Source: a virus
Virus record (IMG/VR): IMGVR_UViG_3300034418_003752
Coordinates: 1-21,353 of that record
Reading direction: 5' to 3' (one strand)
DNA: 21,353 nucleotides
The notes under the pieces were generated by a model that ran no database searches, was not told where the DNA came from, and was given only the letters and a program-made list of their open reading frames with translations. Positions within the stretch are counted from its first letter, which is position 1. Every line of letters starts with the position of its first letter. The position numbers and the translations under genes are program-made. This document shows, piece after piece, positions 2,891 through 21,353 of this stretch.

Positions 2891-2918
2891 ATGACACTCC
2901 CTTAGAAAGGGAGGTCAT
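2891..2918. other. long hairpin enclosing the stop codon of the 184-aa gene
   Basis: ATGAC-a-CTCCCTT, loop AGA, AAGGGAG-GTCAT: twelve pairs with one bulged A. On the minus strand the stop codon TAA (2904-2902) lies in the loop and the adjoining stem. No T-tract follows. This is the left end of the hairpin array. Confidence 0.65.
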
Positions 2919-3456
2919 CAGAAGTTGGGCATCCTTCGGCAATCAAGGCTTCAGCCTCAAGGCGTAGACGCTCTATCTCCGCAGAGCGGAGCCGAGCCAT
3001 AGCCTCCTCTGGAGACTCTCCTGGAAGGAGAGTAACCTTCATCTGTTGCTTCTTGCGAGCCTTCGGCTCGATCACAGGCACCTCCTTACGAGGCTCGAAA
3101 GGCTGAGGTTCACCTTCGGTGATGGCGTGAACAACCTTGGTCTTGGTGACCTTGCCAACTTTGTTGGCAGTGTTCTGCTTGGCTTGAGCTTGCTCAAGTC
3201 CTGCATCAGATGCCTTACGAGGAGAACGAACAGCCTTCGTCTTCTTCGAAGACGCTTTGCGTTTCTTCGACTTGGGCTTGGAAGCCTTCGGCTTCGGTTG
3301 CTCCTTCGGAGCCTCGATGGACTCGATGAGAGCCGACAACGATGCTAAAGCATCGAGGCAAGTCTTCTGCTTAGCAGAAGTAGGGTTGAACATGAAGCTG
3401 TTAACAGCTTTCTTAGTTGCCTTCAGCAACTCGGAGTGATTGATGGTGTTAGCCAT
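2902..3456 (-). CDS. basic Lys/Pro/Ala-rich low-complexity protein, 184 aa, encoded within a hairpin array
   Basis: Residues 1-48 are an ordered helical segment. Residues about 49-90 are a strongly basic Lys/Pro/Ser/Ala-rich stretch (for example KPKSKKRKASSKKTK). Residues 91-140 are a Lys-rich linker, and residues 141-180 form a charged helix (SPEEAMARLRSAEIERLRLE) ending in an acidic tail. This looks like a nucleic-acid-binding or scaffold-like tail around two helices, but no family is recognised. The start has an A/T-rich leader (TTAATCTCTTAACAAA). The gene is the first leftward gene beside the putative origin. Its DNA holds about 20 small perfect hairpins, a property that does not arise from the protein sequence alone because the same motif falls in different reading frames. 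Confidence 0.7.
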   Translation of the reverse strand: MANTINHSELLKATKKAVNSFMFNPTSAKQKTCLDALASLSALIESIEAPKEQPKPKASKPKSKKRKASSKKTKAVRSPRKASDAGLEQAQAKQNTANKVGKVTKTKVVHAITEGEPQPFEPRKEVPVIEPKARKKQQMKVTLLPGESPEEAMARLRSAEIERLRLEAEALIAEGCPTSDDLPF

Positions 3457-3948
3457 TTTGTTAAGAGATTAAGAGTTAAAGAATGAATTCACAGAATTCC
3501 ATTCATTCTTTTACTCTATCTCTACCTCTCTCACCGTGCGAATCAGCAAGCTGATTTGTCGACGCGGTGATTATCAACACGCGGCATCGAAGATGCTTCA
3601 TGTGGGTTGAGGAAACCGACTGAAAATCAAGGTGGTAGTCAACCTTCATTGATGAAGGTTATTTGGGGCTAACCAAAGGTTAGGGGGGTATTGTCCTACC
3701 TCTCTCTCCCTCAATGCTTTAGGCATTGGCCTCAACCACCTAAACAATCGCTTCAACTAAGCATAACTAACTAACTGATTCACAGTAGGTAAGAGGCTGT
3801 CACCTAGAAAAGCTGAAATGTATGCGGCACCGCACGATACATCGCACCCACGGGGTTCGCAGGATGCGTTTCGGGTCCGCGCGCCTGACGCTGTGTGATA
3901 TACATTATCCCCCCGATCTGTATGACGCATCATTTTTTAAAGCCCTCG

Positions 3949-3968
3949 TTATTCACAGGTTATCCACA
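3949..3968 (+). other. tandem DnaA boxes TTATTCACA and TTATCCACA
   Basis: Both 9-mers match the DnaA box consensus TTATNCACA exactly, in the same orientation, with starts 11 bp apart, about one helical turn. A weaker 7-of-9 match (ATATACACT) lies close downstream near 3977. Two perfect boxes in phase in a non-coding region are unlikely by chance and would let host DnaA bind side by side. Confidence 0.65.
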
Positions 3969-4043
3969 GCGCCCGCATATACACTGTTTAACATGCTGTT
4001 TCATAGAGACTTATGTGTATTCACTTAAACCATCACTTTAGAC

Positions 4044-4074
4044 TTGACTTTTACAAAAAAATGTTGTAACTTCG
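4044..4074 (+). promoter_or_regulatory. possible rightward promoter
   Basis: TTGAC (4044-4048) and TAACTTCG (4067-4074) resemble the Bacteroidota pattern, with one mismatch in the -7 element (TTCG for TTTG). It would give a leader of about 150 nt before ATG 4227. The leader includes GTGCGT-GT-ACGCAC (4136-4149) and AGATATCT (4121-4128). Confidence 0.35.
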
Positions 4075-4214
4075 CCAAGCTTGTTAGCGATAAAGCTCCG
4101 AAGCTGTTTTAATACTAAGGAGATATCTTAAGGACGTGCGTGTACGCACTAAAACAGAGGCTACGAAGCGTCAATCAAGCATATATGTTGTGAAGGCGCA
4201 AAGACTGTTTTGTT

Positions 4215-4222
4215 TATATTTG
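4215..4222 (+). promoter_or_regulatory. -7 element TATATTTG next to a start codon
   Basis: A perfect TAnnTTTG element ends only 4 nt before ATG 4227. If used, transcription would start at or next to the start codon, giving a leaderless or nearly leaderless mRNA. No clear -33 element is seen at 19 nt. Confidence 0.5.
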
Positions 4223-4226
4223 CAGT

Positions 4227-4358
4227 ATGATCGTCAAGAAGAAGAATACTTATGAGGTTAGGAGCAAGACAGGGAAGCTGTTGGGTAAGTATTTGACAAA
4301 GGCGGCGGCAGAGAGAAGACTAAAACAGATTGAGTTCTTTAAACATAAGAATAAATGA
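4227..4358 (+). CDS. small basic phage protein, 43 aa
   Basis: A Lys/Arg-rich protein with the layout strand (YEVRSKTGKLLGKY) followed by helix (TKAAAERRLKQIEFFK). This is a common shape for small conserved phage proteins near virion genes, but no function is known to me. The stop overlaps the ATG of the next gene (ATGA), so the pair is coupled. It is the first rightward gene after the origin region. Confidence 0.65.
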   Translation: MIVKKKNTYEVRSKTGKLLGKYLTKAAAERRLKQIEFFKHKNK

Positions 4359-4894
4359 AGTCTAAGAGGAGAAGAAAGCCTGGTGCTGTCGTCATAGCAA
4401 GGACATCGGAGCAGCACAGAGAGGGGTTACGCCCCTTCCACGGTTCTGGTAGGACCGATGTAACCATGGTTTTCCCTAACTCAACGGGTAACTTCAATAC
4501 GAGGGGGATGAAACAGCCTATCGACATCAAGAAGGTTGATGATCAGGGTAGGGTGATCGTGGATCATAGGGGTGTACCACCAGAAATAGACGATATCTTC
4601 ATGGGCGATACCCCAGGGACCGTTATAGAGTCCTCAACGTCCGTACAGAAGTTCAAGAAAGGAGGTATTGTAAAGAAAAAAAGGGATTACAAGAAAGAGT
4701 ACAAGAAGTTCCAGTCATCTAAAAAGATGAAGAAGTACCGTGCTAAGCTTAACAAGTACAATAGAGATAAAGGTACGTATGGGAATGGGGATGGTAAGGA
4801 CGCTTCACACAAGAATGGTGGGATCGTAGGCTTTGAGGATCAGTCTAAAAACAGGGGGAGGAAGGAGAAGTCGCGCCTCAAAAAGAAGAAATAA
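4355..4894 (+). CDS. basic phage protein with GNGDGKDASHKNGG motif, 179 aa
   Basis: The first seven residues are KSKRRRK-type basic. Residues 10-90 look folded and less charged. From residue 97 on, the chain is very Lys-rich: KFKKGGIV (99-106), then GNGDGKDASHKNGGIVGF (143-160), NRGR (166-169) and a poly-Lys end. Short basic proteins with a GDGKD..H.NG...NRGR pattern are, from memory, frequent in phages near virion genes. His and Asp could recall HNH-like metal sites, but no full HNH motif is present. Likely a DNA-associated or virion protein; function is inference. It shares a K-x-x-GG-[IY]V motif with the next gene. Confidence 0.65.
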   Translation: MKSKRRRKPGAVVIARTSEQHREGLRPFHGSGRTDVTMVFPNSTGNFNTRGMKQPIDIKKVDDQGRVIVDHRGVPPEIDDIFMGDTPGTVIESSTSVQKFKKGGIVKKKRDYKKEYKKFQSSKKMKKYRAKLNKYNRDKGTYGNGDGKDASHKNGGIVGFEDQSKNRGRKEKSRLKKKK

Positions 4895-7992: not shown

Positions 7993-8298
7993 ATGAACCC
8001 CAAGGACACCCTCTTCTTCGCCGAAATGTACTCACTCGTCAAGAAGATGGAGGAGGTTATCGACGAATTTGATATGAAAGATCGAGTTCTAGCCTCCATT
8101 GTCGTAGGAGTCATCGACCTAGACGAAGTTGAATACGGAGACGGATCAGCCGAAATGAAGACCATGTATAGCTTCAACCTGCAAAGCAGAGAGGAACTAA
8201 ACGCCGTAAAAGAAGTTATGGATAATGCTTATGTCGATGAGGATGACGATATTGATCTTAGTGATCTCCTTGGTGATCTTGACATATCATTAAACTAA
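7993..8298 (+). CDS. hypothetical acidic protein, 101 aa
   Basis: An acidic protein with a helical N terminus (residues 6-28), a beta-rich middle (ASIVVGVIDLDEVEYG) and a strongly acidic C terminus (DEDDDIDLSDLLGDLD). No family is recognised. It begins the operon 7993-10001 leading to the terminase, about 15-20 nt after the predicted transcript start. The next start overlaps its stop (TAATG). Confidence 0.65.
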   Translation: MNPKDTLFFAEMYSLVKKMEEVIDEFDMKDRVLASIVVGVIDLDEVEYGDGSAEMKTMYSFNLQSREELNAVKEVMDNAYVDEDDDIDLSDLLGDLDISLN

Positions 8299-8534
8299 TG
8301 GAAGGACTTATTAGAAAAATTGTTATCGGAAAGGATCCGAAAAACGGCATGGCATACTATACGGGTATGCGGGCTGGAAAAGGAGAGATTTCCGCAATCA
8401 TAATGGATGAAGAGCATTTGTTTCGTTATCAGAAAAAAAGGTATTTAATTTACATCGAATCAGAAGACTCCACTATGCTTTGGAAGGCTATAGATTCTAT
8501 GCCCTGTATAATTGAATTTGATTTAAATTTTTAA
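8298..8534 (+). CDS. hypothetical protein, 78 aa
   Basis: A small alpha/beta protein (starts MEGLIRKIVIGKDPKNGM). The middle has AYYTGMRAGKGEIS and a strand-helix pattern near residues 49-65. No family is recognised. It is coupled by TAATG to the previous gene, and its stop is 3 bp before the ATG of the GroES-like gene. A role with the co-chaperonin is only suggested by position. Confidence 0.6.
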   Translation: MEGLIRKIVIGKDPKNGMAYYTGMRAGKGEISAIIMDEEHLFRYQKKRYLIYIESEDSTMLWKAIDSMPCIIEFDLNF

Positions 8535-9520: not shown

Positions 9521-9743
9521 CTATCCTTCTACAATAGATTATTACAGCGATGAATGGACTCATGAGTGGTCTAGTGGTGTGGATGGCACCGCACATTTTA
9601 ACCCATGTAACACGCCTAACCCACCGTGGTGGTGCGAAGAAGAAGAGCCCGTCCCCGTCGAACCGAACATTTTAATAATTGTTGGAATGTTCATGTATGG
9701 AGCGTTACTTTTGAAAAAATGCACCCGTAGCTCAGCTGGATAG
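9492..9743 (+). CDS. small single-pass membrane protein, 83 aa, stop codon inside tRNA-Arg
   Basis: A Pro/Trp/Glu-rich N-terminal part (PCNTPNPPWWCEEEEPVPVEP, residues 38-58) precedes one membrane helix (residues 59-75, IIVGMFMYGALLL) and a KK end. The last six codons (TRSSAG) and the TAG stop are the 5' end of tRNA-Arg. Topology would be N-out, C-in. A holin or spanin role is possible because the endolysin has no signal peptide, but a single short helix and an acidic ectodomain are not diagnostic. Confidence 0.55.
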   Translation: MPQQDGTLTSYPSTIDYYSDEWTHEWSSGVDGTAHFNPCNTPNPPWWCEEEEPVPVEPNILIIVGMFMYGALLLKKCTRSSAG

Positions 9744-9794
9744 AGCATCTGCCTTCTAAGCAGACGGCCACAGGTTCGAATCCTGTCGGGTGTA
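9721..9794 (+). tRNA. tRNA-Arg (anticodon UCU)
   Basis: A 74-nt cloverleaf: acceptor GCACCCG/CGGGTGT (G1-U72 wobble), D arm with GCTCAGCTGGATAGAGC, anticodon stem TCTGC/GCAGA with loop CTTCTAA (anticodon TCT at 9755-9757) and T arm ACAGG-TTCGAAT-CCTGT. CCA is not encoded. It decodes AGA and AGG; AGA is common in the late genes here, so it may boost late translation. Confidence 0.95.
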
Positions 9795-15055: not shown

Positions 15056-18042
15056 TGGCTAGGGCTAGAATCAACGTAACCGTCTCTAAAGGCCCTAAAG
15101 GAGACAAAGGGGATACTGGCGCTACAGGTGCCCAAGGATTAAAAGGGGATAAAGGAGATAAGGGTCAGAAAGGTGACACAGGTGATGCAGCCACCATCAG
15201 TGTAAGCTCGTCAACACAAACAAAATCTCCAGGAACTAACGCTACCGTTATAAACACAGGTACATCTTCGGCTGCTGTATTCGAGTTTGCTATCCCGCAA
15301 GGAGCAACAGGGGCGACGGGGGCGACGGGCCCACAAGGAGCAACAGGGGCCACAGGTCCGCAGGGTCCTCAAGGCATTCAGGGTGAGACAGGCGCTACAG
15401 GTCCACAAGGACCGCAAGGCATTCAAGGCCCAGCAGGGGATATCTCCACTTCCAGCATAGATGATCTCACCGACGTAGACACCACCACGGTAGCACCTGC
15501 TGACGGCCAGGCTTTGGTGTGGGATGACGCGAACAGTCAATGGGAACCAGGTGATGTTGGAATTGACGGTATAGTTTCTGCTCCAATAGATAAGGACAAT
15601 TTGTCTGAGTGGAGGGTGTCTTCATCATCTCAAATGATAAGCGTAGGCTCATGGACTTACAATGGGATAACAAAGGTTCCATTTGGCGAAGGCCATCCAA
15701 GAGATCTATATTTCAAGCCAGACGGCACAAGGCTTTACGTTGTTGGGAACGGTCTTGATGATATTGCCTCTGTGGACTTGCCTGTTGCCTGGGATTTGAG
15801 TTCGCTTAGTTCGTCATCAACCGTCACCACAGTTAATATTGCTGGGTCTAGTTCTATTGGCGGATCAGGACTTGAAGGTAGCCTTTATAGTTTATACGTA
15901 GCCTCAGACCCTAATGATACAGACACATACGGTAAAAAGTTTTTCATCTGTGGGTCATCAAAAGATGAGGTCCAAGAATATACATGTTCAACTGCGTGGG
16001 ATTTATCTACCATGTCTGTGGACGCAACGGATTACTTGCAAGTTAGTTCAGTCACAGGTGGATCACCCTATGGTGTGACATTCAAGCCAGACGGGTCTGT
16101 CATGTACGTATCGAACACAGGTTCTGGTGTTTTTCATTATGACCTGTCAACTAACTGGGATTTAAGCACTGCCGTACATGATTCAAATAAATCTATAAAT
16201 CTATCCCTCTTTGATTCGGCTAATAATGCAGAGACGCAAATCCGAAATCTTACTTTTTCAAGTGATGGCACAAAGGTTTATATAGTTGGTGACGGGAGGG
16301 AGTGCTTATGGCAACTCAACCTGTCTACACCTTGGGATATTTCAACTTATATTCAAGACCAGGTTCTCACTCTCGGTAGTGGTTACATTGAGAACTCTTT
16401 TGATTCTGGACATAATTTCTCGGTTAGTTCTGGCGTTTACAACACGGATGATTATTTCTTTATTTTATTCAATCTTAATGACCAAATAATAAGGATAGAC
16501 AAAGTTGGTAACTTAATAAGTATTGATGGTTCTTACATAGAGAGCAGACCTGAATTTATGAATGGCCTTACTGCTTATTCTAGCATCTCTACAACTGGAA
16601 ATATATATGCCCCAGGTGCTGGATCTCGATTTGGTGGCAATATGTATGTTAATGGGCAGGTAAACATAGGTACTATTAATGGAAGCGGACTGTATCAGAA
16701 TGGCTCGCAGTTTCATGTTGGAGCACCATGGATAAGATTTAGTGGTGAAGGCCAAGCAAACGTTGGTGCTAACGAATACGGTCTTTACTTGAGGCCAACG
16801 GCTGGATATCGAGACGCTCTTTACAATTTGTACCTTCCCAATGTTAACGGAACCCTTAAGACCGATCAGGAAACCTATTATCTTGGAAGGTTTGATTCTG
16901 AAGCTGAATCAAAGGTCACTGGGGCCACAGAGGTAGTTGAATACTATTACACGGCAAGGGCAGATGGTCAAGGAGAAAAGGAGGCTTTTCTTTACGATGT
17001 CGCTGCGTCAGGGCAAACGATATCTAGAAAGGTTTATTACGCCACTAAAGCCCTTGCGGATCCAGATACCGCTGTTGATTGGACACTCGACACTTCGCAC
17101 TCATCTTATACTGACTCCGTTACCGCCGCTAAAGCTTTGCTGAACTCGGCAACATCTGGTACACCCCCTCTAACTCTTAAGGTGGCTACTACGGGTCTCT
17201 CCAGTGTAAACTTCTTAAAGCTAGACAGTGGTGATTTCACCCTGGCTTACAGCTTGAGGCTGGTAAACCCAAGCTACACTGGAGCGGCAATAAGGGTCAT
17301 AAACGACAGCAATGTGGAGGCAGACATCGGTTTTGTGGAAGAAGAACTTGACACTACGGCTCTTTTGAATCACTGCGGTTCAGGAGATGGGTACATCACG
17401 ATTTGGTACGATCAGGCTCAAAACGGGGCTACGGGATCGGGGAACGACGCTAGTTATGGCAACCCTTACTTCACTCCAGTGAATCGACCTAAGATTGTCA
17501 GTGCTGGCTCTGTGCTCACTGATGGCGGTAAGCCGTGCTTGTTTGTTGAGGACTCCTCTCTTCAGTTAGAAAGCCAGGTAGACTTCACTCCAAATGGAAC
17601 CATGATTGCTTACGTGGCTTCAAAGGATGCCTCCGCAGACTTCAACTCTGGTATGATACTGGGCGACTTCCAAGGAACTAGCAACCAACAGAACAGAATC
17701 TGGGAGAAAACCACGCAAATTGAAGGTCAAGTTCATGGCAGTAACACAAATTACACGTTTGCATCTCCAGAAGACGGGACTGTTGTTGGAGCTGGTCAGA
17801 AGTTAGTTGCTTTTTACAGAGATTCTTCTAATTATTGGTATATAGACAGGAATTCTGTAACCTCTGGAAGCAGTCTCAATAGAAACTACAATTTTTGCGT
17901 TCAGACCTTGTTTAACGGCTACAACACTATAGCGTATTCTTATCATGGAAACGTACAGGAGATTGTTATGTTCAATACTGATAAATCCTCTGAGCGAGCC
18001 GCGATTAAGTCAAACATCAATACGTACTACAGCATTTACTAA
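15055..18042 (+). CDS. collagen-like tail fibre with WD-like and ABF-type domains, 995 aa
   Basis: Host-recognition fibre. Residues 13-45 and 83-129 are collagen-type Gly-X-Y repeats (for example GDKGDTGATGAQGLKGDKGD), separated by a spacer module (residues about 48-82: AATISVSSS ... AAVFEFAIPQG). Residues about 205-480 contain propeller-like repeats with FKPDGTRLYVVG, FKPDGSVMYVSNTG, FSSDGTKVYIVGDG and W-DLST. Near 725-810, AYSLRLVNPSYTGAAIRV and ITIWYDQA resemble the arabinofuranosidase-B-type fold used in phage fibres. The last 180 residues look LamG/concanavalin-like, ending in QEIVMFNTDKSSERAAIKSNI. Trimerisation by the collagen part is expected. No chaperone domain seen. TAATG coupling to the next fibre gene. 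Confidence 0.85.
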   Translation: MARARINVTVSKGPKGDKGDTGATGAQGLKGDKGDKGQKGDTGDAATISVSSSTQTKSPGTNATVINTGTSSAAVFEFAIPQGATGATGATGPQGATGATGPQGPQGIQGETGATGPQGPQGIQGPAGDISTSSIDDLTDVDTTTVAPADGQALVWDDANSQWEPGDVGIDGIVSAPIDKDNLSEWRVSSSSQMISVGSWTYNGITKVPFGEGHPRDLYFKPDGTRLYVVGNGLDDIASVDLPVAWDLSSLSSSSTVTTVNIAGSSSIGGSGLEGSLYSLYVASDPNDTDTYGKKFFICGSSKDEVQEYTCSTAWDLSTMSVDATDYLQVSSVTGGSPYGVTFKPDGSVMYVSNTGSGVFHYDLSTNWDLSTAVHDSNKSINLSLFDSANNAETQIRNLTFSSDGTKVYIVGDGRECLWQLNLSTPWDISTYIQDQVLTLGSGYIENSFDSGHNFSVSSGVYNTDDYFFILFNLNDQIIRIDKVGNLISIDGSYIESRPEFMNGLTAYSSISTTGNIYAPGAGSRFGGNMYVNGQVNIGTINGSGLYQNGSQFHVGAPWIRFSGEGQANVGANEYGLYLRPTAGYRDALYNLYLPNVNGTLKTDQETYYLGRFDSEAESKVTGATEVVEYYYTARADGQGEKEAFLYDVAASGQTISRKVYYATKALADPDTAVDWTLDTSHSSYTDSVTAAKALLNSATSGTPPLTLKVATTGLSSVNFLKLDSGDFTLAYSLRLVNPSYTGAAIRVINDSNVEADIGFVEEELDTTALLNHCGSGDGYITIWYDQAQNGATGSGNDASYGNPYFTPVNRPKIVSAGSVLTDGGKPCLFVEDSSLQLESQVDFTPNGTMIAYVASKDASADFNSGMILGDFQGTSNQQNRIWEKTTQIEGQVHGSNTNYTFASPEDGTVVGAGQKLVAFYRDSSNYWYIDRNSVTSGSSLNRNYNFCVQTLFNGYNTIAYSYHGNVQEIVMFNTDKSSERAAIKSNINTYYSIY

Positions 18043-21000
18043 TGGCTATAAACTTCGACAGCGACACTAACCAGGTAAACATCACGGTACCATCACCGAC
18101 TACTATCACGGTGACCAAACCCGCTGATGTTTCTGTTACGGTTACAGAAAAAGGAATTAAAGGGGATGCAGCCACCATTACGGCGGGTACGGTTACCACC
18201 GTGGCCGAGGGTGTTCCTGCGGCTGTAGTGAATAGCGGTACCACGAAGGATGCTGTATTTGACTTCTCCATCCCAACTGGTCCAACGGGGGCTACTGGTG
18301 ATGCCGCTACCATCACGGTTGGTACTGTAACTACGGGCGTAGAAGGGAGTTCAGCCACAGTCACTAACTCTGGCACAAGTGGGGCTGCTGTATTTGATTT
18401 CTCAATTCCTGTTGGGGCCACGGGAGCGACTGGCGCTACAGGAGCTACAGGAGCTACAGGACCTGCTGGTGCAGATGGTGCAGATGGACAGGGGGTTCCC
18501 ACAGGGGGTGTTGCAGATCAGATAATTGTTAAGCAAAGCGCTACTGATTACGATACCGCTTGGGATTACATTCAGACAATTACAGAAGCCGTAAAAAACG
18601 TAAGTGGCGGCCCTCTTGACAAGGGCACCCCACTCCACGTCACTGGGTCTACTGGAAACACCGTTGAGGTTATTGCTGCAGATGCAACCACTAATTACCC
18701 AGCGCACTTAATTCTGAACGAGGACCTTGTTGACGAAGCAGAGGGAAGGGCCGTTGCTTTAGGCTTTATAAACAACATAGACGTCCCTGATGCATCTATC
18801 TATTCTGAGGGCCAAACCGTTTACCTTGGTGCTTCGGGTGGATGGACAACCACTAAGCCAACTGGTACTAGCGCTATTCAGAACCTTGGGGTTATCGTTA
18901 AAGTAAACGTTTCTGGGAACAAAATCTCGGGCGTTGTGCTTGGAGCTGGGAGAGCTAATGACGTGCCGAATTTACCTTCTGGTAAGTTCTTTATTGGTAG
19001 CGCTACAAACACTACTACGTCTGCATACACGCTTCCTACTGCTGACGGCACAACAGGACAGCTTTTACAAACCGACGGTGCTGGTGCGGTTACGTTCGTA
19101 GACTTCTCAGGATCCCCTTGGACAACCTCTGGTAGCGACATCTACTACACTGCTGGGAATGTAGGAATTGGAACTAGCTCTCCAGGAGTAGCGCTAGATA
19201 TCGCTGGCCAGATTAACGCTACTTCTAGCACATTCCCAGTCCTTGGCTTTACAAGAGAAACCACCCTCACCTCTGGTGCATTTACTGACGCTACTGGTAT
19301 CGCTAGCGCAATGGAACTCACCACTAAGACAAGTGGCGACATGGGTGACGGTTTTGGTGGAGGTATTGTATTTACCCTTAATGACGTAACAGAGACGTCT
19401 ACTAGTAATTACGTAGCTAGATTATACGCTCGAAGAGACGGAGCAGACAATACGGGGGCTTTACAATTCTTTACTGGAACGAACGGTCTTGACCCATCTA
19501 TGATAATTAGAGGGTCTGGGAATGTAGGTATCGGTACGGCTACACCTGCTGAGGCATTGGATGTTGTTGGAAAAGCTAACATTACGGACGCTAGTAATAA
19601 CGTATTAATATCTACTGGGAATAGCACAATTACTGCAACCAACACAGTAGCAGTAGGCTACCAAGCTTTAACTGCCTTAACCATAGGAGCTGGGAATACT
19701 GCTGTAGGTTATCAGGCTGGGGATGCTTTAACCGCTGGATCAAACAACACTCTCTTAGGTTATTCTGCTGGAACAAGCTTAACTGGTAGTAATAACACCA
19801 TTCTAGGGTATGAAGCTGGGTTGAATGCTGTCGGTTATGGAAATCAAGTTTATGTAGGTTACAGGGCAGGGGCTGGGTTTTCAGGGGATGATGACCAATG
19901 CGTTATGGTTGGTTCTGAAGCTGGTGGGTCCAATATGGGAGCTTGGGGAGTTGGCGTTGGTTTTCAAGCTAACTACAATACAAGCGGCTATGGCATCGTA
20001 GGCGTTGGGTATCAAGCTAACAGAACAAACACTGGTGCTTACTCTGTTGGGATTGGGCATGAAGCAGGATATAATAGCTCTGGAGAAAATTCAATTAGAA
20101 TTGGAAAGCACTCAGGTTATAGCTCCACTGGTGCAAACACCATTGCTATAGGTGCAGACTCCTTAAAAGTTACTACGGTTGACAACACAGTAGCAGTAGG
20201 TTACGAAGCATTAAAAGCGCTGACTACTGGTGGGTCTAATACTGCGCTTGGTGACAGAACATCAAGGGCTATAACTAGCGGTAGCGGAAACACCTCTGTC
20301 GGCATATTGGGTTTAAGCAACGTAACAACAACAAGCAACAACACTTCTGTTGGTGCTCAGGCATTGCAATTAACCACTGGGTCAAACAACACGGCTGTTG
20401 GTTTTCAGTCTGGTAATTCAATAACTACTAGCTCTGATAATACACTTCTTGGTTATGCTAGCGGTATTTTTAATACTGGGTCACAGAATGTAGCCCTTGG
20501 TAGCAGGGCTATGTACGGATCCCCTGGTTCTTCAACCTTCTCCAATACAGTAGCAGTCGGATACCAAGCATTAACCGCACTAACTACTGGAACGGGTAAC
20601 ACAGCAGTAGGTTATCAGGCTGGGGTTGCTTTGACTACTGGGGCTAACAACACGTTCCTTGGCTATCAGGCGGGAGACTCAATACTTCAGAGCAATAATA
20701 CCATTATAGGCTATGGAGCGGGGGCAACTGGTGCTAATGTCAATGGGACTGTGATTATAGGTTCTGGGGCAGCTGCCTTAGCAACAGGACCAACATATGG
20801 GGTTATCATAGGCTATCAAGCGGCAGGAAGCGCTGCCCAAAACGCTGGAAATGGCGGGGTTGTTATCGGTTTCAGGGCTGGTCAAAACAACACAGGTACT
20901 GGAAACGTGTTAATTGGGGCGAATGCTGGTCAGACTGGTAATGGTGTCGATAATATTTTCATAGGGAAAAACTCAGGTCAAAACGAAACAGGCTCCAACA

Positions 21001-21353
21001 AACTCTACATAGAGAACAGCAACTCCACCACCCCACTGATTTACGGGGAGTTCGATAATGACATCCTTAGAGTAAACGGCTCTTTCGAGGTTACTGGAGG
21101 TGTGACGGCAGATGATGGCGGTCTCACCGCAGCGGGAGACTATGGTAAAGGCGCAGAGATTTGGTATCAAGGTGCCTCCACCCCAACGGCTGGAAGCGTA
21201 TACTACTTAGACAGCTCAGGGAACTGGGCTAATACAGATGCCAGTGCTGTAGCTACGGCCAAGGGTATGATAGCAGTTTCGACAGGAACAGATTCAGACG
21301 TTGACGGAATGTTAATTAAAGGATTTGTGTACGTAGGCGCTGATCCTGGAGGC
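18042..21353 (+). CDS. second tail fibre, collagen plus YadA-head-like repeats, open at right edge (at least 1104 codons)
   Basis: Residues 1-155 hold two copies of the spacer module (DAATITAGTVTT ... AVFDFSIP and DAATITVGTVTT ... AVFDFSIP) and short GATGATG collagen runs. The middle has GNVGIGTxxP segments (near 372 and 493), typical of phage fibres. Residues about 533-980 contain 27 repeats of the xxGYQAG type (AVGYQAL, AVGYQAG, LLGYSAG, FIGKNSG ...), the pattern of trimeric autotransporter (YadA/Hep_Hag) heads, so a left-handed trimeric beta roll is likely. The gene continues past the window, so a C-terminal chaperone or receptor domain may follow. The spacer is shared with the previous fibre, so the two genes are related. 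Confidence 0.85.
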   Translation, partial: MAINFDSDTNQVNITVPSPTTITVTKPADVSVTVTEKGIKGDAATITAGTVTTVAEGVPAAVVNSGTTKDAVFDFSIPTGPTGATGDAATITVGTVTTGVEGSSATVTNSGTSGAAVFDFSIPVGATGATGATGATGATGPAGADGADGQGVPTGGVADQIIVKQSATDYDTAWDYIQTITEAVKNVSGGPLDKGTPLHVTGSTGNTVEVIAADATTNYPAHLILNEDLVDEAEGRAVALGFINNIDVPDASIYSEGQTVYLGASGGWTTTKPTGTSAIQNLGVIVKVNVSGNKISGVVLGAGRANDVPNLPSGKFFIGSATNTTTSAYTLPTADGTTGQLLQTDGAGAVTFVDFSGSPWTTSGSDIYYTAGNVGIGTSSPGVALDIAGQINATSSTFPVLGFTRETTLTSGAFTDATGIASAMELTTKTSGDMGDGFGGGIVFTLNDVTETSTSNYVARLYARRDGADNTGALQFFTGTNGLDPSMIIRGSGNVGIGTATPAEALDVVGKANITDASNNVLISTGNSTITATNTVAVGYQALTALTIGAGNTAVGYQAGDALTAGSNNTLLGYSAGTSLTGSNNTILGYEAGLNAVGYGNQVYVGYRAGAGFSGDDDQCVMVGSEAGGSNMGAWGVGVGFQANYNTSGYGIVGVGYQANRTNTGAYSVGIGHEAGYNSSGENSIRIGKHSGYSSTGANTIAIGADSLKVTTVDNTVAVGYEALKALTTGGSNTALGDRTSRAITSGSGNTSVGILGLSNVTTTSNNTSVGAQALQLTTGSNNTAVGFQSGNSITTSSDNTLLGYASGIFNTGSQNVALGSRAMYGSPGSSTFSNTVAVGYQALTALTTGTGNTAVGYQAGVALTTGANNTFLGYQAGDSILQSNNTIIGYGAGATGANVNGTVIIGSGAAALATGPTYGVIIGYQAAGSAAQNAGNGGVVIGFRAGQNNTGTGNVLIGANAGQTGNGVDNIFIGKNSGQNETGSNKLYIENSNSTTPLIYGEFDNDILRVNGSFEVTGGVTADDGGLTAAGDYGKGAEIWYQGASTPTAGSVYYLDSSGNWANTDASAVATAKGMIAVSTGTDSDVDGMLIKGFVYVGADPGG
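19641..20636 (+). repeat. in-frame direct repeats inside the second fibre gene
   Basis: The block AACACAGTAGCAGTAGG plus TACCAAGC recurs starting at 19641, 20184 and 20544. Copies one and three stay similar for about 93 bp (19641-19733, 20544-20636). Spacings of 543 and 360 bp are multiples of three, so recombination between copies would keep the frame and change fibre length. Confidence 0.7.

Follow-up and report, generated by a model that had tools for sequence, protein, structure and literature searches.

A pair of DnaA-type boxes at the divergence point of a marine Bacteroidota phage genome and a candidate phage-encoded DnaA-domain-IV-like reader

Results

The IMG/VR record comprises 21,353 bases, all of which were analysed (referred to as the window), and is a fragment of a larger virus, the relatives of which measure 48-71 kb. 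The virus is a marine Bacteroidota podovirus-like phage (TerL phrog_6681, portal phrog_6547) whose named relatives are the Flavobacterium elemoviruses, Cellulophaga phages and MW202828. Both the elemovirus NC_055852 and contig G001 are organized in two arms like those of the window, with leftward transcription of the replication genes and rightward transcription of the structural ones. In relatives the genes of the leftward arm include those for a primase/DnaB-like helicase (BT4734-like_N + DnaB_C), a DUF3799 exonuclease, an endonuclease and a small PF08299 protein; our fragment ends 3.4 kb into this arm. The ORF map of the window places a non-coding divergence region of 770 bp (3457-4226), as originally predicted, between the leftward early/replication arm and the rightward structural arm. 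It is bordered by the first leftward ORF (2902-3456, minus strand, 184 aa), which is kept in relatives and lacks a known family match, and by the first rightward ORF (4227-4358, plus strand, 43 aa), which is followed by an ORF at 4355-4894. The structural arm also carries a tRNA gene shortly before TerL (9721-9794, plus strand; Rfam tRNA, 72 bits), and a very long plus-strand ORF (18042-21353), which continues past the edge of the window, contains repeats of an NTAVGYQAL-type motif and collagen-like G-A-T-G stretches and probably encodes a tail fibre or adhesin.

Two perfect DnaA boxes lie within the divergence region on the plus strand, TTATTCACA at 3949-3957 (box 1) and TTATCCACA at 3960-3968 (box 2), with starts 11 bp apart. 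As predicted, both are exact, and they are the sole TTATNCACA sites in the window. Single near-boxes are frequent by chance in the window; the number of perfect tandem pairs expected per window from base composition, at spacings of 10-12, is 6.3e-5, and no perfect pair arose in 60 Markov shuffles. Two further candidate occurrences were rejected: an exact 21-mer, TTATTCACAGGTTATCCACAG, is present in 24 other viral contigs with unrelated flanks and often in longer box runs, and a box pair in the early arm of G001 overlaps the end of an open frame and is probably due to chance.

The predicted nested hairpin is present at 3532-3569, where CACCG (3532) and CGGTG (3565) enclose AATCAGC (3541) and GCTGATT (3550). 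It sits upstream of the leftward gene in a conserved stretch (approximately 3464-3555, with 78-80% identity in L033, L099 and L056) that is probably the 5' leader of the leftward transcript. An apparent excess of short perfect inverted repeats (stems of 7-9 bp, loops of 0-3) was also noted at 2897-3661, partly inside the leftward gene and partly upstream. The A/T-rich patches that had been described proved weak: the lowest-GC 40-nt stretches (25% GC) do exist but are found at 3457-3515, far from the boxes, the GC content of 3531-4080 is 46% against 45% for the whole window, and a GC scan of the region found no clear AT-rich element beside the boxes. The alignment also revealed a conserved element at 3905-3931, for which relatives carry ATAATCCCCACGATCTGTATTAC and of which a similar version occurs in G006 and G002; this element, ATAATCCCC-ACGATCTGTATTAC, is kept even in relatives without boxes.

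The other prominent feature of the region is a promoter, P1 (4044-4074, plus strand), recognized by its match to the Bacteroidota promoter consensus, TTG-N20-TAACTTCG. Some 75 bp separate box 2 from the start of the -33 element of P1 downstream, and the promoter is followed by a conserved leader RNA (4073-4215, plus strand) with a hairpin, GTGCG-TGTA-CGCAC, at approximately 4136-4149. A pattern for P1 and its leader retrieved 48 IMG/VR contigs sharing the conserved promoter core; within the non-coding region conservation is highest in the promoter and leader, and the sequence between the boxes and P1 is partly conserved too. The P1 transcript probably has a structured leader, as 27/27 relatives can form a hairpin of 5-7 bp at this position, its stem sequence taking several different, covarying forms (mean stem 6.3 versus 3.7 in shuffles). 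A closing stem pairing 4104-4111 with 4150-4157 on the plus strand (CTGTTTTA/TAAAACAG) is proposed but statistically not secured. A pair-count test on the MAFFT alignment was unconvincing because the hairpin is misaligned there, the single-sequence fold of the leader was no better than those of shuffles, and Rfam contained no family matching it. Attenuation, antitermination or priming are guesses at what the leader does. A second promoter-like -7 element, TATATTTG, is located at 4215-4222 (plus strand), 4 nt before the ATG. In the relative L164, the early-arm genes are served by promoters of their own, of the TTTG...TATCTTTG type, around 1793, 3391 and 5377, which suggests the use of host RNA polymerase.

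Conservation of the boxes was assessed among 80 relatives recruited by TerL and in the contigs matching the P1 pattern. The non-coding block 3847-4241 shows 70-77% identity in some 15 long relatives, and none of the long relatives scanned has an exact box pair. Most of the P1-pattern contigs have a diverged pair in the corresponding position ahead of P1, such as TTATGCACA/TTATCCACA in L205, TTATGCACG/TTATCCACA in L209 and L221, TTATCCACG/ATATCCACA in L202 and TTATCAAC pairs in L201 and L073. Box 2 is better kept than box 1, which has degenerated to TTATGCACG, TTACGAACA and TTATCAACT among others, and in relatives it lies upstream of P1, at a distance of 101-106 bp from the TGTAACTT of that promoter. 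In a non-redundant set of 29 sequences (<90% identity), which are kin to each other and so do not amount to 29 independent observations, 19 show a box that departs from TTWTNCACA at no more than one position, located at -118 to -99, where 500 shuffles gave a mean of 0.8 and a maximum of 4. Two of the ten that miss this criterion are L073 and L201, with the pairs given above; about one-third of the non-redundant relatives are without a recognizable box, and some of these (G001, G036 and L167) encode the DnaA-domain-IV-like protein described below. Loss of the boxes in relatives had been named as grounds for refuting the original prediction, and the outcome is mixed, a majority retaining a box in position and a substantial minority not. 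As the boxes are above chance and partly conserved, the sequences support the pair as a functional DnaA-type binding site. That the pair is a chance match is hardly credible given its expected frequency and its positional conservation, even though single near-boxes are common and only part of the relatives conserve the site.

The original prediction had noted that no initiator is visible in the window. This is true of the 21-kb fragment but uninformative, since the fragment ends so soon after entering the leftward arm and relatives encode a DnaA-domain-IV-like protein further out. This protein, of 120-195 aa, is found in 16 of the 17 related contigs that hold the primase-helicase, the sole exception being G054, where the helicase (719-2530) is near the contig end. 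Its gene belongs to the replication module together with the primase-helicase and exonuclease genes, beyond the equivalent of our fragment's left edge; it is not in the window, and this phage's own copy, if any, would be off the fragment.

A search for further members brought the family to 38 loci, and all 28 aligned members match PF08299, the DnaA domain IV helix-turn-helix (HTH). PF08299 alone was matched by all members and no AAA+ domain was found in the family, the architecture being an HTH and a long C-terminal helix without an ATPase. A sequence profile compared with the PDB placed domain IV of Escherichia coli and Mycobacterium tuberculosis DnaA first (1j1v, 3pvp). An AlphaFold (AF2) model (pLDDT 91) gave DnaA for all six best entries in VIA-align (Z 8.1-10.8), the next, unrelated entry scoring 5.8, while Foldseek returned E-values that on their own are not significant, with DnaA chains near the top at a probability of 0.98-1.00. 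The positions aligned to E. coli D433, H434, T435, T436 and H439 are mostly kept (DHSTVVH). The phage protein thus resembles bacterial DnaA domain IV (PF08299; 1J1V, 3PVP) in fold and in most recognition-helix residues but differs in its long C-terminal helix, its missing AAA+ domain and its origin in uncultivated phage contigs.

No member of the family was matched by tblastn in 50,697 phage records (E 0.01), a search of bacterial genomes with one degenerate pattern returned no relative of the protein, and literature searches returned no report of either the protein or the box site. The uncultured podovirus MW202828 from Manatee Spring (our L153), which has a related TerL (48.7% identity), encodes two separate PF08299 (DnaA_C) proteins (8033-8335 and 17107-17676), annotated 'dnaA' and 'chromosomal replication initiation protein'; they are only distantly similar to the family, with no tblastn match to it at E 0.01.

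To relate the protein to the site, we compared recognition helix and box in the 16 contigs that yielded a readable protein as well as a readable P1 region, counting the diverged forms TTATCAAC and TTATGAACA as boxes. The helix is intact, with His at the positions of E. coli H434 and H439, in 11 contigs, and a TTAT/ATAT-type box is present in all of these except L167. In the other five the helix is altered (H434 to R, or H439 to Y) and no TTAT/ATAT-type box is found, the site being TTTTCCACA or missing. The association (Fisher p 0.0014) carries no correction for phylogeny and was noticed in the same data. We treat this covariation of recognition helix and box as a lead favoring a phage-encoded box-binder over host DnaA. 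Box-keeping relatives encode the domain IV protein, so the site probably serves the phage's own DnaA-like protein, and the most likely reading of these sequences is that an early DnaA-domain-IV-like protein of the phage reads the box pair.

Discussion

The original prediction proposed a phage replication origin that depends on host DnaA. The cumulative GC-skew minimum, one of the checks it proposed, does fall at the divergence in G003 and in the elemovirus, yet skew at fourfold sites is about zero in the relatives' arms, with uneven per-gene values, so the minimum reflects coding orientation and was discarded as evidence for an origin. The boxes are of the TTWTNCACA type expected of a DnaA-dependent origin; a cluster of several boxes is absent, the two exact boxes standing alone in the window. 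No iterons were noticed beside the one pair, and no other origin signal emerged. The idea of an origin retains a DnaA-type site at the divergence and loses the support of skew, of box number and of the one-third of relatives without a box. On sequence grounds the site is a possible replication origin, favored by the type of site and by the location of the protein gene in the replication module.

The proposed dependence on host DnaA is weakened by the DnaA-domain-IV-like protein that relatives encode near the primase-helicase. An origin opened by host DnaA bound to the pair would have canonical targets, TTATCCACA being the box type of R1-R4 in E. coli oriC (PMC5835720), and a precedent in the plasmid P1 origin, which uses host DnaA (PMC4980987, PMC5043065) and for which, according to the title of a cited work, a single DnaA box suffices. 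We nevertheless consider such an origin unlikely, in view of the existence of the phage protein, the drift of the boxes among relatives (TTATCAACG, TTATGAACA, TTTTCCACA) in step with its helix, and the lack of both a box cluster and a clear adjoining AT-rich element. The oriR of phage/plasmid P1 is likewise an extrachromosomal replicon with DnaA boxes in a control region, but it has two DnaA-box arrays, a DUE and RepA iterons (PMC4980987, PMC5043065), as opposed to the one pair, with no iterons identified, and the domain IV-like protein of relatives seen here.

Our preferred explanation, to which we assign a probability of roughly 40%, is that the pair is a genuine DnaA-type site at a control hub, where the phage DnaA-domain-IV-like protein binds and marks the replication origin. 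We infer that this phage would encode the protein, that the protein would bind these boxes and that binding would start replication; the bound protein could mark the divergence region as the origin and help to bring in the phage primase-helicase, and transcription from P1 may aid opening of the DNA. Phage lambda offers a parallel, in that its ori works with a phage DNA-binding protein from the replication module and a nearby promoter could help opening (PMC5043065). The differences are that a DnaA-domain-IV-like HTH, a candidate for the role of initiator, would stand in place of O, and that the pair lies at the divergence point with P1 reading away from it.

Promoter control is an equally simple reading, and the fixed spacing fits both. 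The pair would then be an operator for P1, through which the phage protein or host DnaA switches the rightward structural operon with no origin involved. The nearly constant distance from box 2 to the -7 element, the conservation of P1 and its leader above all else in the region, and a protein that is a small HTH without an ATPase all suit an operator. Against it, the gene for that protein is part of the replication module, close to the primase-helicase, and the spacing may stem simply from the partial conservation of the intervening sequence instead of from contact with polymerase; we regard an operator without an origin as a close rival, somewhat less probable than the preferred explanation. 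Alternatively, the protein might mainly block host oriC by competing for its boxes, with the phage pair as an autoregulatory or titration site. DnaA biology suggests that an isolated domain IV would bind boxes and leave the DNA unopened, but the pair adjoins P1 rather than the protein's own gene, and we think this quite improbable.

We know of no account of how replication starts in the abundant marine Bacteroidota phages. Tentatively, and at somewhat less than even odds, we suggest that a widespread lineage of these phages has an orphan DnaA DNA-binding domain that coevolved with boxes at the divergence point, the phage thus having adopted the DnaA-box code for its own replication start or a transcription switch, and that this domain may also vie with host DnaA at oriC. 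Such an ATPase-less phage domain IV and its candidate boxes would uncouple the recognition of boxes from the melting of the origin, which would be testable in cultivable relatives (elemoviruses and Cellulophaga phages) if counterparts are found there. The protein would further qualify as a candidate through which phages interfere with the initiation of host replication.
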